The notes beneath the pieces were generated by a model. That model saw nothing but the letters and a program-made list of their open reading frames with translations. It was not told the DNA's origin and did no database searches. Made by a program: the position numbers and the translations under genes. This document shows, in pieces, positions 16,670-28,502 of a DNA stretch of 46,678 nt. Every line of letters begins with the position of its first letter. Position 1 is the first letter of the stretch. The stretch lies in NCBI RefSeq assembly GCF_014859505.1, contig NZ_JACUUD010000011.1, forward strand, positions 1-46,678, read 5' to 3'. This DNA comes from Halomonas sp. (GTDB lineage Bacteria; Pseudomonadota; Gammaproteobacteria; Pseudomonadales; Halomonadaceae).

Positions 16670-16786
16670 GGGGCGGGGCTACGCTGAGTGGTGACAACGT
16701 GCAAGCCTAACACCTGGCAGCGAGGGGCATCGAGGCATCGACGTGAGGGGTTGACGAGCCGGCGTTCGTGACCCAAGCTGTGTGCA

Positions 16787-16804
16787 TTCAAACGGCCGTA
16801 TGAA
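16787..16804. promoter_or_regulatory. PsrA-like operator upstream of fadBA
   Basis: TTCAAACGGCCGTATGAA is an 18-base inverted repeat with one mismatch. Its core CAAAC-N4-GTATG matches nine of ten positions of the published PsrA pattern CAAAC-N2-4-GTTTG. It ends 16 bases before the fadB start codon. TTGACG at 16751-16756 could be the -35 of the promoter, though no good -10 follows. Confidence 0.55.
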
Positions 16805-16820
16805 ATCGGGAGATTCGCGG

Positions 16821-20211
<3,391 letters not shown>

Positions 20212-22436: not shown

Positions 22437-24014
22437 ATGACACGATCCAAGACGCCAGCCATTCTGGACGATGTTCTCTCACCGCTTGCGCTGAAGCGCG
22501 TGGGCATCGACACCTACCGCGAGAACGTCGCCTACCTGCACCGCGAGTGCGACCTCTATCGCGCCGAGGGCTTCCAGGCGCTCTCCAAGGTCGAGGTGCG
22601 CGCCAATGGCCGGCGCATCCTGGCCAGCCTCAACGTGGTGGATGACAGCGGGATCGTCGACCCCCATCAGCTCGGCCTCTCCGAGGATGCCTACGGCTCC
22701 CTGGGGGTGGAGGAGGGCCATCCGGTCAGCGTCTCCCAGGCCGAGCCGCCGGCCTCGATCCCGGCCCTGCGCCGCAAGCTGGCGGGCGAGCGCCTCTCTC
22801 GCGACGACTTTCGCGACATCATTCGCGACATCGCCGACCTGCGCTACTCGAAGATCGAGCTGACCGCCTTCGTGGTGGCGTGCGACCGTGGCGAGCTCGA
22901 CCGTGAGGAGGTCTTCTACCTGAGCGATGCCATGGGCCGCGTCGGGCGCCGCCTCGACTGGCACGAGCACCCGGTGGTCGACAAGCACTGCATCGGCGGG
23001 ATTCCCGGCAACCGCACCTCCATGCTGCTGGTGCCCATCGTGGCCGCCCACGGCCTGCTCTGCCCCAAGACCTCGTCGCGGGCCATCACCTCGCCCTCGG
23101 GCACTGCGGACACCATGGAGGTGCTGGCCAACGTCGACCTGCCGTTCGACGAACTGGGCGACATCGTGCGCACCCACCGCGGCTGCCTGGCCTGGGGCGG
23201 TACCAGTCAGCTCTCGCCGGCCGATGACGTGCTGATCTCCGTGGAGCGCCCGCTCTCCATCGATTCTCCGGGACAGATGGTCGCCTCTATCCTCTCCAAG
23301 AAGGTGGCCGCCGGCTCCACTCACCTGCTGCTCGACATCCCCGTGGGGCCCCACGCCAAGGTGCGTTCCATGCCGGAGGCCCGCCAGTTGCGCAAGCTGT
23401 TCGAGTTCGTGGCTGGGCGCATGGGCCTGACCCTGGACGTGGTGATCACCGACGGCAGTCAGCCGGTAGGACGGGGGATCGGCCCGGTGCTGGAGGCCCG
23501 CGACGTGATGCAGGTGCTTACCAACCACCCCGACGCACCCATGGACCTGCGCCTTAAGGCGCTGCGCCTGGCCGGGCGCATGCTGGAGTTCGATCCCGAC
23601 GTGCGCGGCGGCGACGGCTTCGGCATCGCCCGGGACATCCTCGATTCCGGCCGGGCCCTGGAGAAGATGCAGGCGATCATCGCCGCCCAGGGCGGCAAGC
23701 CCTTCGACCCCGATGCGCCTCCGCTGGCGCCCCACGCCTTCGAGGTGGTGGCCCCGGAGGCGGGCGTGGTGATTGGCATCGACAACCTCAAGCTGGCCAG
23801 GATCGCCCGCCTGGCCGGCGCGCCCAAGGCCACGGGGGCGGGCGTCGACCTGCTGGCGCGCATCGGCGATCGCATCGAGGCGGGCCAGCCGCTCTATCGG
23901 GTCCATGCGGCCTATCGCAATGAGCTGGCCTTCGCCCACCAGTCCAGCGAGCGGGACAGCGGCTTCAGTCTCGGGCAGGCCGACCAGATCACCCGGCTCA
24001 ACGTCGAGTTCTGA
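22437..24014 (+). CDS. AMP phosphorylase / thymidine phosphorylase type 2 family protein
   Basis: A 525-residue nucleoside/nucleotide phosphorylase. It differs from ordinary DeoA (about 440 residues) by an extra N-terminal domain (1-100), as in archaeal AMP phosphorylases, which convert NMP plus phosphate to base plus ribose 1,5-bisphosphate. Phosphate-site motif [11 protein letters not shown] (182-192) and [16 protein letters not shown] (211-226) match that subfamily, not the DKHSTGGVGD and GRGLGHTGGT of DeoA. The helical domain starts near 108 and a C-terminal barrel-sandwich domain near 440. The ATG at 22437 follows GGGAAGAG. It forms an operon with the PRPP-synthetase-like gene 27 bases downstream. 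Substrate is inferred, not shown. Confidence 0.85.
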
Positions 24015-24041
24015 ACAGCGGGTTCTGAATAGGGAGGTCCG

Positions 24042-24935
24042 ATGACCAGCGTACTGCTGCACTTTCCCGACGAGGCCTCACCGGCCCGGCGGCTCGCCGA
24101 GGCCTGTGGCCTTGCCGCTCGCGAGGTCGAGCGCCACCGCTTCCCCGACGAGGAACTCAAGCTCACCCTGCCCTTCGCCGAGGAAGAGGCCTTCCCCGAG
24201 ACTCTGGTGATCTATCGCAGCCTGGACCGGCCCAACGACAAGCTGGTCGAGCTGCTGCTGCTGTCGCGCCACGCCCGCGGACAGGGGGTGAGCCGCCTGG
24301 TCCTGGTGGCGCCCTATCTCGCCTACATGCGCCAGGACATCGCCTTCCACGCCGGTGAGATCGTCAGCCAGACCCTCGTCGGCGGTTTTCTCGGCGAGCT
24401 GTTCGATGCGGTGATCACCGTGGACCCCCACCTGCACCGCATCGAGCGTCTCGACCAGGCGATTCCCATCGAACATGCCATCGCCCTCTCGGGTGCCCCG
24501 CGGCTGGCCGAACTGATCGCGGAGAAGCGCCCCGGGGCGCTGCTGCTGGGCCCCGACGAGGAGGCGCTGCAGTGGGTGGCCCAGGCCGCGGAGGCCACCG
24601 GCTTCGAACATGCCACCTGCCGCAAGGTGCGCCACGGCGACCGCGACGTGACGATCTCCCTGCCCGATATCGAGCTGGCCGGTCGGCGGGTGGTGTTGAT
24701 GGATGACGTGGCGAGTTCCGGCCATACCGTGGCGCGTGCCGCCGAGGCGCTGCTGGCCGCGGGAGCGGCCTCCGTGGATGTGGCGCTGACCCATGCGCTC
24801 TTCGCCGGTGACGCCCTGGCGGTGATCCGGGACGCCGGTGTCGGCGAGATCTGGAGCACCGACTGCATCGCCCACGACAGCAACGCCATTACCATGGCGC
24901 CTGTGCTGGCCGAGGCGCTGAACACCCTGGCATGA
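24042..24935 (+). CDS. Ribose-phosphate diphosphokinase (PRPP synthetase) paralogue
   Basis: Family reaction: ribose 5-phosphate plus ATP gives PRPP plus AMP. The 297-residue protein is shorter and more divergent than housekeeping Prs (about 315), nearer archaeal forms. Motifs: PYLAYMRQD (91-99, ATP site), VDPHLHR (127-133, metal and ATP site), K195 in the catalytic flexible loop CRKVRHGDR, and the PRPP loop DDVASSGHT (221-229). The typical bacterial allosteric-loop sequence is not obvious, so it may be unregulated by ADP. GGGAGG lies just upstream of the ATG. Its pairing with the phosphorylase suggests a joint role in nucleotide and PRPP exchange. The housekeeping prs is presumably elsewhere. 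Confidence 0.84.
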   Translation: MTSVLLHFPDEASPARRLAEACGLAAREVERHRFPDEELKLTLPFAEEEAFPETLVIYRSLDRPNDKLVELLLLSRHARGQGVSRLVLVAPYLAYMRQDIAFHAGEIVSQTLVGGFLGELFDAVITVDPHLHRIERLDQAIPIEHAIALSGAPRLAELIAEKRPGALLLGPDEEALQWVAQAAEATGFEHATCRKVRHGDRDVTISLPDIELAGRRVVLMDDVASSGHTVARAAEALLAAGAASVDVALTHALFAGDALAVIRDAGVGEIWSTDCIAHDSNAITMAPVLAEALNTLA

Positions 24936-24992: not shown

Positions 24993-26237
24993 CTACTTCT
25001 CGCCGGGCTCGGGCAGGTCGGCGCCCTGATGGCCGAGCGTATCGGCCTGGTCGAGGCGCGGGTGGTTGTCCAGGAACTCCCGGTGCGGGTCGGGGAGGGC
25101 GTCCAGCGCCTGGAGGCTGCGGGTGATGGCGTGGATCGCCGCCGTCACGTCGCGGGTGTTGCCCGTCTCCGAGATCGTGTGCATGTTGCGGATCGGGAAA
25201 CCGATGGAGGTGGACACGCAGTCCACGGCGGCCAGTACCCCGGCCATGCCGTCGGTGCCGGTATCGGCGCCGACGATGTCGCGCTGCATGGGGATGTCAT
25301 GCTCGCGAGCGGTGGTCTCGACGATGCGGTTGAGCTGCTCGCTGGCGATGGCCCCTACCGACAGGGTGAAGCCCTTGCCCATTTCCAGCGGCTGCATGCG
25401 GCGATCGCCGATGCCCGGAGCCGCCACATAGTCATGGTTCACGTCCACCGCGATGATGGCATCGGGCCGGAGCTCCCCGGCCAGCACCCGGCTGCCGAAG
25501 CGTCCGATCTCCTCGTAGCTGGCGATGGCGAACATCACCCGGACCTGCTTGGTGCCGCCCGCCTCGGCGATCAGCCTTGCCACCTCGGCGGTGACGAAAC
25601 AGCCCAGGCCGTTGTCCAGGTAGGCGCCGTGGAAGGTGTCCGGGCTGAAACCGTGGCGGATGGGACGGTTGAAGATGATCGAGTCCCCGGGGCGCACGCC
25701 CAGCTTCTCCACCTGCTGCTTCTTGTTCTCGCCGTGGATCTGCAGGTCCAGGTAGATCTGCTCCTTCTTGATGCCCTTGCTGCCATCGCGCTGGGCCGTG
25801 TCTGAGAAGTGGATGGCGCCCAGCGCCTCCACGGTGCCCCCCTCAATGCGCCGGTAGTTGCCGGGCGCCTTCGGGTCCTCGCTGAACAGCGTGACATCGT
25901 GGCCGATCAGCACGTTCGGCAGGAAGGCGTCGGTGTTGATCCAGATCTTGCCGTCCTCGCCGATGGAGCGCACCTGCATGCGGATCTTGTCGGCGTGGCC
26001 GATCACCATCACCTTGAACAGGTCGTCGCGGCCGGGGTGGGTGTCCAGCACCACTCCCGCATGACCCTTGAACTGGTGCAACTGCCAGCCCGCGGGGGCG
26101 AAGCCCTCGAAGTGGGGCTTGAGGACGCCATAGGTCATGGCGGCCTCCAGGCCGACCGGGCTGGGGGCCGCGAGGATGCGCCGCATCAGCTCGAACTGCG
26201 CCTCGGGCATGGGGCTCGTCCAGGGGGTATCGCTCAT
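24993..26237 (-). CDS. M42 family metallopeptidase
   Basis: A 414-residue two-metal aminopeptidase of the PepA/FrvX/TET type, cytosolic, releasing N-terminal residues from peptides. Metal-site blocks in order: IGHADKIRMQV (H and D, about 75-85; the usual DE is DK here), GAYLDNGLGCFV (bridging Asp, about 212-223), ASYEEIGRFGS (general-base Glu, about 245-255), AVDVNHD, and NMHTISETGNTRDV near the end (His ligand). The length is larger than typical M42 (about 350), with extensions at both ends. ATG with GAGAGGA five bases upstream. Single gene. Confidence 0.85.
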   Translation of the reverse strand: MSDTPWTSPMPEAQFELMRRILAAPSPVGLEAAMTYGVLKPHFEGFAPAGWQLHQFKGHAGVVLDTHPGRDDLFKVMVIGHADKIRMQVRSIGEDGKIWINTDAFLPNVLIGHDVTLFSEDPKAPGNYRRIEGGTVEALGAIHFSDTAQRDGSKGIKKEQIYLDLQIHGENKKQQVEKLGVRPGDSIIFNRPIRHGFSPDTFHGAYLDNGLGCFVTAEVARLIAEAGGTKQVRVMFAIASYEEIGRFGSRVLAGELRPDAIIAVDVNHDYVAAPGIGDRRMQPLEMGKGFTLSVGAIASEQLNRIVETTAREHDIPMQRDIVGADTGTDGMAGVLAAVDCVSTSIGFPIRNMHTISETGNTRDVTAAIHAITRSLQALDALPDPHREFLDNHPRLDQADTLGHQGADLPEPGEK

Positions 26238-26372
26238 CGTGTCCTCTCTCGCTACAGGGGGTGATCATCTCTCCCGAGCTTACCATTCCGGGCGGCTGCG
26301 GTCTGTCCGGGGGCCGCCAACGGCGGCGACTATGTCGAACTCGGCAGCGTGCTGGACCTGCGCCACTATGCG

Positions 26373-26822
26373 TTATTCCCGGATCTCGGCAATGACCTCG
26401 CCGGTCTCCTCGCTCAGCCCCGTCTCCTTGAAGCCGAGGCTGGCATAGAAGTCCCGGGCGACACGATTGGTGGGCACATAGCAGATCGCGATCCGCTCGA
26501 AGGGTCCCTGTGCCCTGATCTCGTCCAGCACACACTGCATGGCCCTGTGCCCGATGCCTCTTCCCTGATGGTGTCGGTCGATCATCAGCCGGAAGATGTT
26601 GTAGGCAGGTGGCCGGCCCTCGTGGTCGAAGGATTCGTACATGAGAAAGCCGACCACTTCTCCGTCGCAATAGATGGCGCGGGGCCGATAGGTCGGATGG
26701 AAGCTCGATTCGGCGAGGGAGTAAATATTGTCAGCGACATAGTCACGCTGCGATGTCGCTACCTCCAGCGCAATCACGGCCTCGAAGTTCTCGCGGGTGA
26801 CCGCCTTGAGTGCTACGTCCAT
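26373..26822 (-). CDS. GNAT N-acetyltransferase, BltD/PaiA-like
   Basis: A 149-residue single GNAT domain. The acetyl-CoA site is HQGRGIGHRAM (about 84-94, the Q/RxxGxG/A motif), preceded by YNIFRLMIDRH on strand four and followed by ARDFYASLGF. The N-terminal half (ENFEAVIALEVATSQRDYVADN) resembles Bacillus BltD, a spermine/spermidine acetyltransferase, so a polyamine or other small amine substrate is possible. The ATG at 26822 has AAGGAG six bases upstream; the frame is open 22 codons further without a start signal. Divergent from the VIT1-family gene. Confidence 0.82.
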   Translation of the reverse strand: MDVALKAVTRENFEAVIALEVATSQRDYVADNIYSLAESSFHPTYRPRAIYCDGEVVGFLMYESFDHEGRPPAYNIFRLMIDRHHQGRGIGHRAMQCVLDEIRAQGPFERIAICYVPTNRVARDFYASLGFKETGLSEETGEVIAEIRE

Positions 26823-26981
26823 TGCATGCTCCTTGCTTTGGGCATCACGCCTGTCGTCGTGCCGTGCTGCCCCGTCAGTATGGCGCATCCTTCGGGAGGG
26901 CGACGCCGGTGCCGGGCCTCACCTGTCACTGGCCGGCTGTGCCAAGCTGGAAGCAGGATGAAGGACACAGCGAGGTGGCCC

Positions 26982-27740
26982 ATGAACGACCGGCGGCGCG
27001 AAGCGCTGGAGCACGAGCATCGCCCCGAAGTGATCGAGCAGCGGCTGCGAGCGCCTTCCCCGGTGCGCAACCTGCCCGATGCCATCCTCGGCGGCATCGA
27101 CGGTTGCGTGACCACCTTCGCGGTGGTCTCCGGGGCCTTCGGGGCGGGCTTCTCGGCAACCGTCGCCCTGGTGCTGGGGGTTGCCAATCTGCTGGCCGAT
27201 GGCTTCAGCATGGCGGTCAGCAACTTTGAAGCGATCAAGGCCCAGCGAGAGCATATCGACGGGGTGCGTCGCAGCGAGAATCACCATATCGACGTGGTCC
27301 CTGAGGGCGAGCGCGAGGAGGTCCGCCAGATCTTCCAGCGCAAGGGACTCACGGGCGAGACCCTGGAGCGGGTGGTGGAGACCATCTGCAGTGACCGCAA
27401 GTTATGGGTGGAGACCATGGTCATGGAGGAGCATGGCCTGCAGTCCGATGGGCTGAGTCCGCTGCGCTCGGCCCTGGTGACCTTCACGGCCTTCCTGGTG
27501 GTGGGTGTCATGCCGCTGCTGCCCTACGCCATGTCGGGACTGGGCATCACGCAGCAGTTCTTTTCCAGCCTTGCCATAGCCGGGCTGATGTTCTTCCTGA
27601 TCGGCATGGGCAAGAGCCTCGTCTACCACCAGCCGGTGCTGAAGTCGGGGCTGCGGACCCTGTTGATCGGCGGGGTCGCGGCGGGGCTGGCCTTCCTCAC
27701 CGGCCATCTGGCTCAGGCGCTGTTCGGCGCGGGGATGTAA
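26982..27740 (+). CDS. VIT1/CCC1 transporter family protein
   Basis: A 252-residue membrane protein of the vacuolar iron transporter family, whose members move Fe2+ or Mn2+. NLPDAILGGIDGCVTTFAVVSGAF (about 29-52) is the first membrane segment with the family DGxxT pattern, followed by VANLLADGFSMAVSNFEA (about 66-83). A Glu-rich cytoplasmic helical region (about 85-145) is where the family binds metal; three further segments follow. The ATG at 26982 has GAGGT six bases upstream; an in-frame ATG at 26958 is also possible. Metal specificity is not determined by sequence. Confidence 0.84.
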   Translation: MNDRRREALEHEHRPEVIEQRLRAPSPVRNLPDAILGGIDGCVTTFAVVSGAFGAGFSATVALVLGVANLLADGFSMAVSNFEAIKAQREHIDGVRRSENHHIDVVPEGEREEVRQIFQRKGLTGETLERVVETICSDRKLWVETMVMEEHGLQSDGLSPLRSALVTFTAFLVVGVMPLLPYAMSGLGITQQFFSSLAIAGLMFFLIGMGKSLVYHQPVLKSGLRTLLIGGVAAGLAFLTGHLAQALFGAGM

Positions 27741-27949
27741 TCGTCCTTGTCCGCGTGGATGGAGGCCAGGATCGCCGTCTCTCCCGAGCCGAGGCACGCG
27801 GTCATCGGCTAGAGGCATGAGGGCATGACGAGAATCATGCTGATCTGTGTCAAGTGGGCCGGACAGGGTTGGGCTACCTTGATGATGAGGCGAACCCGCT
27901 CGTAGCGCGTCAGTCGCTGTTTCCCGGCCCTGACATCTCGGGTTCCGCG

Positions 27950-27983
27950 GGCCTCGCCATTCGTCAACTCCATTCGAGGAGCC
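27950..27983 (+). promoter_or_regulatory. Leader hairpin covering the hsp20 ribosome binding site
   Basis: CCTCG (27952-27956) pairs with CGAGG (27975-27979), extended by GG-CC across a two-base bulge. This would bury GAGGAG, the ribosome binding site eight bases before the hsp20 ATG. Such occlusion is how RNA thermometers of small heat shock genes work, but the pairing is short and the sequence is not a known ROSE element. Confidence 0.3.
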
Positions 27984-27989
27984 ATCATC

Positions 27990-28502
27990 ATGGCCAAGAA
28001 AGCGTCCAGGGACACCGAGGAGGTCCCGGTCTCGACCGGGAAGTCGGCACCGCAGCAGGAGTCCCGGGCGATGAGCCCGTTCCGGGAGTTCGATCGCCTG
28101 CTCGATACCTTCTTCGATCGTGGCGGTATGCCGTCACGCTGGGAGCATCCCCTCTGGCAGCGCTTTGCCGCCTTCGAGAAGGGCATGCCGAAGGTCGATG
28201 TCATCGACCGAGACGCCGAGGTGGTAGTGCGTGCCGAGGTCCCGGGTTTCGAGAGCGAGGAACTCGATGTCACGGTGACCGACGCTGCGGTGACCATCAA
28301 GGGCGACCACCGCGAGGAGAGCAAGAAAGAGGAGGGCGAGTACTTCCATTCCGAGATCTCCCGCGGATCCTTCACCCGCACGGTGGCACTGCCCGGCGAG
28401 ATCGATGCCGACAAGGCGGAAGCCAGCTTCAAGAACGGCGTCCTCGAGCTGACACTGCCAAAACACAAGAAGGCCAACCGTCGCAAGGTCGAGGTCAAGT
28501 AA
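27990..28502 (+). CDS. Hsp20/alpha-crystallin family small heat shock protein
   Basis: A 170-residue ATP-independent holdase chaperone that binds unfolding proteins. A variable N-terminal arm with FREFDRLLDTFFDR (about 31-44) precedes the alpha-crystallin domain (about 68-158): PKVDVIDRDAEVVVRAEVPGF, ITIKG-type strand VTIKGDHREE, YFHSEISRGSFTRTVALP, and the hallmark FKNGVLELTLPK. It lacks a clear I-x-I tail motif; the end is RRKVEVK, with V-x-V. ATG with GAGGAG eight bases upstream, possibly masked by a leader hairpin. No sigma-32 promoter was seen in the 249-base gap upstream. Confidence 0.93.
   Translation: MAKKASRDTEEVPVSTGKSAPQQESRAMSPFREFDRLLDTFFDRGGMPSRWEHPLWQRFAAFEKGMPKVDVIDRDAEVVVRAEVPGFESEELDVTVTDAAVTIKGDHREESKKEEGEYFHSEISRGSFTRTVALPGEIDADKAEASFKNGVLELTLPKHKKANRRKVEVK

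Follow-up and report, generated by a model that had tools for sequence, protein, structure and literature searches.

In Thermococcales and halophilic archaea, the pentose bisphosphate pathways, as outlined in PMC9700705, place ribose 1,5-bisphosphate (R15P) as a node between nucleotides and central carbon, and continue from it via R15P isomerase and then either RuBisCO or a phosphatase and an aldolase. The same source, citing Hove-Jensen 2003, gives PhnN as a ribose-1,5-bisphosphokinase, which converts R15P to phosphoribosyl pyrophosphate (PRPP). Here, we describe a two-gene pair from a Halomonas sp. (NCBI RefSeq assembly GCF_014859505.1), located in a stretch of 46,678 nucleotides (contig NZ_JACUUD010000011.1, positions 1 to 46,678; hereafter the window), which we tentatively propose to be an R15P module with a different second enzyme. 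The first gene, P1, codes for a protein resembling the archaeal phosphorylases of adenosine monophosphate (AMP) or, more generally, nucleoside monophosphates (NMPs), and the second, P2, for a divergent paralog of PRPP synthetase (Table 1). Like the archaeal pathways, the proposed module would have R15P as its node between nucleotides and central carbon.

P1 and P2 constitute a conserved module. The original prediction had taken them for a same-strand pair 27 bases apart, which the confirmed open reading frames (ORFs) at 22437-24014 and 24042-24935 bear out, and had left their conservation to a genome search, in which 40 of the 44 genomes with P1 turned out to have P2. This survey covered 398 genomes of one phylum, judged from the named relatives to be Pseudomonadota, and 14 control genomes. 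Within the 398, P1 exceeds its family cut-off in 44 genomes (47 genes) and P2 in 40 (41 genes); two P2 genes below the cut-off were counted in as adjoining P1 (G321, at 299.6 versus 322, and G295:C42, truncated where its contig stops), giving 43 P2 genes in 41 genomes, 40 of which also possess P1 (Fisher exact p = 3.5e-49, kinship ignored). Among the controls, P2 is above the cut-off in none of the 14 and P1 in three. As many as 39 of the 43 P2 genes share their strand with a P1 no more than 250 bases away; those that do not are in G329 and G190 (4.4 and 3.8 kb from P1, the interval holding an RNase gene and a phosphoketolase-like one), G272 (a fragmented genome), and G419 (no P1). In the named loci, viz., the best 80 of 571 candidates, P1 directly precedes P2 in 74, with flanking genes that differ among lineages, and in 73 of these 74 the intervening gap is at most 68 bases, often a one-base overlap (169 bases in L107). 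The best named matches of P2 are from Halomonas, and one genome (G028) has three P2-like copies, each with its own P1 (L152, L162, L163). Beyond a table on Bradyrhizobium, we found no account in the open-licence library searched of the P1-P2 pair as a unit, of the P2 loop described below, or of the PhnN fusion.

The nearest solved structure to P1 by sequence is 4ga5/4ga6 (E 1.9e-105), which was deposited as a putative thymidine phosphorylase and which we take to be the AMP phosphorylase TK0352 of T. kodakarensis. P1 shares with it the N-terminal domain, the GN(K/R)T stretch, presumably a phosphate-site motif, and the SSRAITS stretch, the latter two being replaced by GDKV and AGRGLGH in a DeoA-like protein of another genome; the extended form SSRAITSxxGTAD is found in 108 of 112 P1 sequences. 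The models NF003338 and TIGR02645, both of the subfamily named "putative thymidine phosphorylase" in NCBIfam, recognize P1 well above their cut-offs (696.8 versus 434 bits over residues 17-513, and 601.3 versus 434.6 bits), and their coverage takes in the extra N-terminal domain, whereas the thymidine phosphorylase models begin only at residue 111-112. The 525-residue phosphorylase with an additional N-terminal domain that had been predicted is thus recovered both as an ORF (22437-24014) and in its domain composition. P1 falls below the cut-off of the AMP phosphorylase equivalog TIGR03327 (491.5 versus 535 bits), in which it differs from the archaeal enzymes, and far below that of the thymidine phosphorylase DeoA equivalog TIGR02643 (151.6 versus 570.7 bits). 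P1 quite likely acts on NMPs.

P2 has the PRPP-synthetase fold by sequence as well as by its predicted structure, which is a confident one (mean predicted local distance difference test score 92.3). It exceeds the cut-offs of NF005537 (368.5 versus 322 bits) and of the PRPP-synthetase subfamily model TIGR01251 (175.4 versus 113 bits), and among the 50 structure matches listed, the top one is the M. jannaschii enzyme 1u9y and the query TM-scores against PRPP synthetases range from 0.81 to 0.89. With 1u9y and E. coli Prs it has in common the adenine, the metal, and most of the ribose 5-phosphate (R5P) and catalytic residues. Studies of the E. coli and human structures give F35 and D37 as adenine contacts, H131 and D170 as contacts of the alpha-phosphate and metal, and D220, D221, and T228 as contacts of R5P (PMC9232217, PMC10227994); a catalytic Lys and Arg are likewise described in PMC12238573, where the pyrophosphate loop is counted among the catalytic loops. 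In an alignment of 134 P2 rows (some genomes being repeated) with nine canonical enzymes, the F, D, and E of the adenine flag are retained in 133 of the 134 rows, the remaining row having a gap, and the equivalents of R96, Q97, H131, D170, D220, D221, and T228 in 133-134.

The striking departure is in the pyrophosphate loop, the element of PRPP synthetases that holds the distal phosphate of PRPP. Its DxGG motif is retained in all nine canonical enzymes of the alignment, and 1u9y shows DKGA, whereas P2 has DxE(S/A) in all 134 rows and in all 113 distinct sequences of the deduplicated set (each of at least 271 residues), followed in nearly all by Gln-Trp (Gln in 127 and Trp in 133 of 134). In addition, the metal motif of P2 takes the form H-x-H-R, the metal His being followed by a His and an Arg that are both novel and invariant, and the C-terminal end is shorter than in class I PRPP synthetases. 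As the Glu stands at the expected site of the distal PRPP phosphate, this acidic residue would argue against diphosphate chemistry in P2. A third PRPP-synthetase paralog of Halomonas relatives, which is not paired with P1, retains a DPGG loop (3/3), and therefore the loop change goes with the pairing rather than with being a paralog. The loci of this third paralog (L164:5076-5966, L165:4913-5827, L166:5035-5916) show no phosphorylase match in the 11 kb around them.

The genomes in which P1 lacks P2 provide a separate pointer to R15P as the probable compound shared by the two enzymes. In all four with P1 above the cut-off and no P2 (G428, G418, G344, G285), PhnN, scoring above its own cut-off, is fused to the N side of P1. 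Because PhnN takes the place of the missing P2, the partner slot of P1 probably serves R15P, and the fusion of the phosphorylase to an enzyme of R15P makes it very probable that R15P is its product and NMPs, hence, its substrates. PhnN fills the same slot as P2 with an unrelated fold (PhnN shows a weak guanylate-kinase match), and P2 is not a PhnN homolog. The four are drawn from 90 genomes with PhnN above the cut-off, and three of them also possess a separate PhnN above it. The nadC gene is directly upstream of each fusion, as identified by the family model in L117 and L120 and by 63-68% identity in L118 and L119. In the P1 tree, computed without L155, L156, and the broken P1 of L121, the fused versions group in a single clade with a support of 1.0; support for the deep root is weak (0.33). 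They carry WNGR and NHS instead of WGG and LSPADD, and given this changed stretch the base they use may differ. In L120, PhnN seems to stand in for P1's own N-terminal domain. The arrangement of the fusion with nadC also outlines a possible route from NMP via PRPP to nicotinic acid mononucleotide.

Table 1. Coordinates and supporting evidence for the P1-P2 pair in the window and for the PhnN-P1 fusions
Feature	Position	Strand	Basis
P1, AMP/NMP-phosphorylase-like protein with extra N-terminal domain, 525 aa	22437..24014	+	ORF, family models, structure match
P1 residues 183-194, [12 protein letters not shown], GN(K/R)T stretch	22983..23018	+	comparison with 4ga5
P1 residues 213-226, [14 protein letters not shown] signature	23073..23114	+	sequence comparison
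Spacer P1-P2, 27 bases, AGGGAGG before P2 ATG	24015..24041	+	sequence
P2, divergent PRPP-synthetase paralog, 297 aa	24042..24935	+	ORF, family models, structure prediction
P2 residues 34-38, FPDEE, adenine-binding flag	24141..24155	+	alignment
P2 residues 171-178, PDEEALQW, remodelled pyrophosphate loop (canonical PDxGG to PDxE(S/A))	24552..24575	+	alignment
P2 residues 195-197, catalytic-loop Lys and Arg	24624..24632	+	alignment, kept in 134/134
P2 residues 221-229, DDVASSGHT, ribose-5-phosphate loop	24702..24728	+	alignment
PhnN-P1 fusions	L117:4470-7430, L118:5622-8616, L119:6662-9555, L120:5425-8077		

The remainder of the window's genome (G000; 3.36 Mb) separates the pair from the archaeal route. 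The absence of R15P isomerase and RuBisCO, remarked in the original prediction for the vicinity of the pair, holds genome-wide, with no match at E 0.001 to TIGR00511 or, in this one pair genome in which RuBisCO was searched, to PF00016. Across the 398 genomes the isomerase is above its cut-off in none, with weaker matches to the wider family in 209, and among the controls it is above the cut-off in three of the 14. Each of the families involved is already known; since the isomerase is nowhere above the cut-off and RuBisCO is unmatched in the window's genome, we regard their combination as a new form of the archaeal NMP-to-R15P theme and not a member of the archaeal pathway. P2 is also not the sole PRPP synthetase of its genome, a possibility raised at the outset, as a canonical enzyme is encoded on contig C52. 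Elsewhere in the same genome are a PhnN on contig C55, in a stretch resembling a phosphonate operon (the phn names being read from translations), and a stand-alone, divergent phosphoketolase-like protein of 800 aa (G000:C217; L160:7246-9645), which shares 55-56% identity with its pair-linked counterparts of L114 and L152.

Further contextual clues come from more distant lineages, examined in 40 chosen, non-random regions, 33 of which (from 32 genomes) hold both genes; neither the window's genome nor nine others in the sample that have P2 are represented in these regions. A beta-CASP metallo-beta-lactamase with the RNA-specificity domain (an RMMBL RNase) adjoins P1 or P2 in 19 of the 33, and a divergent phosphoketolase occurs within about 3.5 kb of the pair in five; in two loci (L114, L115) both genes stand between P1 and P2. 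The Pfam assignments cover two RNases and a single pair-linked phosphoketolase. Outside these regions, G113 has an ordinary phosphoketolase about 2 kb from P2. Two of the three G028 pairs are accompanied by RNase and phosphoketolase-like genes, the latter being cut by a contig end in L162.

A link to oxygen is suggested by B. diazoefficiens, in which bll3115-3117, known here by their names only (MBL fold hydrolase, ribose-phosphate pyrophosphokinase, and thymidine phosphorylase family protein), are increased at 0.5% oxygen both as proteins (log2 2.9, 4.4, 2.1) and as transcripts (15.4, 7.7, 5.1 fold); they are not up in soybean bacteroids and lie outside the direct FixK2 and NifA regulons (PMC6515984). 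An FNR/Anr-like box was not found upstream of P1 in the window (best candidate with 4 mismatches of 10). Boxes with at most two mismatches occur in 22 of 108 relatives as against about six in block-shuffled controls, the relatives being non-independent.

Given the above, we tentatively propose that P1 and P2 form an R15P module, in which NMP phosphorolysis would be followed by the transfer by P2 of the 1-phosphate of R15P to AMP. P1 would convert NMP and inorganic phosphate to the free base and R15P, and P2 would convert R15P and AMP to R5P and adenosine diphosphate (ADP), using the geometry of PRPP synthetase backwards with one phosphate fewer. Stated in the direction of the ancestral enzyme, the PRPP-synthetase reaction minus one phosphate would be R5P + ADP = R15P + AMP, with the alpha anomer, as the phosphorylase would yield. 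The phosphate taken up in phosphorolysis would thereby be conserved as ADP, and R5P would feed into the pentose-phosphate pathway or, if a phosphoketolase is linked to the pair, into that enzyme. The flow would be a catabolic one toward R5P, which fits the RNase and phosphoketolase-like neighbors, and the module might serve RNA or nucleotide breakdown, e.g., at low oxygen. The components of this proposal differ in strength: counting the proposal together with two of the alternatives considered below, P2 likely uses or makes R15P, while it is possible, though it calls for more caution, that the phosphate goes to AMP in a catabolic flow. Of the original suggestion that P2 may accept R15P, the handling of R15P has thus gained support from the PhnN fusions in P2-less genomes and the invariant loop change, and the reaction itself stays at the level of inference.

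The principal alternative, which we regard as unlikely, makes P2 an equivalent of PhnN on a PRPP-synthetase fold, converting R15P and adenosine triphosphate (ATP) to PRPP and ADP, such that the pair would turn NMP into PRPP and base for base exchange or PRPP recycling. Here lies the strongest point against phosphotransfer to AMP: PhnN, in the place of P2 in the fusions, makes PRPP, and P2 as its functional equivalent should do so too; with nadC, a PRPP user, alongside, the fusion would be exactly such an NMP-to-PRPP route with a different second enzyme. Against this stand the geometry of the fold, which transfers from the beta-phosphorus of ATP and would need to be otherwise for gamma transfer to a sugar phosphate, the Glu gained in the very loop expected to hold the distal phosphate of PRPP, and the neighbors of P2 in distant lineages, which are unlike those of the fusion. 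The base-exchange role suggested in the original prediction receives no special support, as the RNase and phosphoketolase-like neighbors in the distant lineages (absent in close relatives) point rather to the use of RNA ribose. It is quite unlikely that P2 is instead an ordinary or condition-specific PRPP synthetase acting on R5P and ATP and supplying the PRPP with which the liberated base is salvaged: its largely retained catalytic and R5P residues, the superposition of its model on PRPP synthetases at the TM-scores given above, and its NCBIfam name would all accord with this, but the DxGG loop kept by the canonical enzymes and the third paralog is invariably lost, the genome already has a canonical enzyme, and breaking an NMP only to remake it from PRPP would amount to a futile cycle.

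Less probable still is that the same enzymes run in reverse, with R5P + ADP yielding R15P + AMP, and base + R15P yielding NMP and phosphate, as a PRPP-free nucleobase salvage; this rests on the same P2 residues as the AMP-dependent breakdown that we prefer, and nucleoside phosphorylase equilibria usually favor synthesis; against it, the RNase and phosphoketolase-like neighbors of more distant lineages suggest breakdown. The least probable option, and a decidedly improbable one, is that P1 is a nucleoside (thymidine/uridine) phosphorylase, as the databases name its family, and that its pairing with P2 concerns something else. In keeping with it, P1 as a query retrieved no additional, DeoA-like match from the genome of the window; its low score on the thymidine phosphorylase equivalog, its fusion to an R15P enzyme, its 4ga5-like motifs, and the coexistence elsewhere of lower-scoring DeoA-like genes with P1 (e.g., in G006, G282, and G344) speak against it.

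Several further observations weigh against the R15P module with AMP as acceptor. P2 is found without P1 in six of the 80 named loci (L040, probably the same assembly as G419, and L056, L066, L068, L087, and L109) and in G012; therefore, P2 can be kept without P1, in which case it must be useful alone or be a relic. Conversely, G291 has a P1 broken by an internal stop (427.8 versus the cut-off of 434), with no P2 and no fusion (L121:4099-7507), and G340 a second P1 that is neither paired with P2 nor fused (L116:6201-7727). As the fused P1s form one clade, the four PhnN-P1 fusions are one event and not four. Within P2, Ser stands in for T225 in 105 of the 134 rows, the remaining 29 having Thr, and the position of human N200 is mostly Arg (73/103) in a first alignment of 103 rows, where some genomes occur more than once and the gene of the window is included. 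The loss of a beta-phosphate contact at the position of E. coli R99 had been considered as a clue to the mechanism, with Ile in 83 of those 103 rows, and was dropped given K/R in 15 of the 134 rows of the wider alignment (I 86, M 12, K 9, V 7, R 6, others). As for the neighborhoods, the distant regions are a non-random choice, and among the 80 close relatives, neither the RNase nor the phosphoketolase occurs near the pair in flanks of up to 9 kb. Counting phosphoketolases of every type, P2 genomes show no significant excess (13/41 versus 6/39 hand-picked controls, mostly from the same families; p 0.12), and likewise the divergent form falls short of significance (4/41 versus 0/39; p 0.12).

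Some of these solitary genes show traces of their history. In L056, only the tail of P1 is left beside P2, while the flanks of L068 match those of the P1-bearing L064, such that P1 alone seems to have been lost in L068. The broken P1 of G291 adjoins an intact-looking beta-CASP RNase, and the second P1 of G340 is near a copper-exporting ATPase gene and lacks an exact SSRAITSxxGTAD. In the window itself, the neighbors of the pair (ketopantoate reductase, M42 peptidase, GNAT, Hsp20) are uninformative on function; those that follow it, for an M42 aminopeptidase, a GNAT acetyltransferase, and Hsp20 (24993-28502), have similar counterparts in a few close Halomonas relatives. Farther upstream (16782-19370), two long ORFs of 739 and 860 aa overlap on opposite strands; probably only one is a real gene and the other its antisense shadow, a common situation when G+C is about 67%.

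Databases label the pair as a thymidine phosphorylase and a spare PRPP synthetase. In its most complete form, which we consider doubtful as a whole, our proposal would make P2 a new AMP-dependent R15P 1-phosphotransferase derived from PRPP synthetase via an acidic pyrophosphate loop, and P1-P2, along with the RNase and phosphoketolase in some lineages, a RuBisCO-free pathway from RNA nucleotides to ADP, R5P, and acetyl phosphate at low oxygen. The NMP-to-R15P route has so far been known mainly from archaea, where it is finished by other enzymes, and the pair spans many proteobacteria. If the proposal is true, bacteria without R15P isomerase, and in the present case also without RuBisCO, would still use R15P as a metabolic node, and a pyrophosphokinase fold would have been turned into a single-phosphate transferase. 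The pair would then also represent a testable enzyme set for the low-oxygen use of RNA ribose, for which the PhnN fusion offers a second, independent test system.

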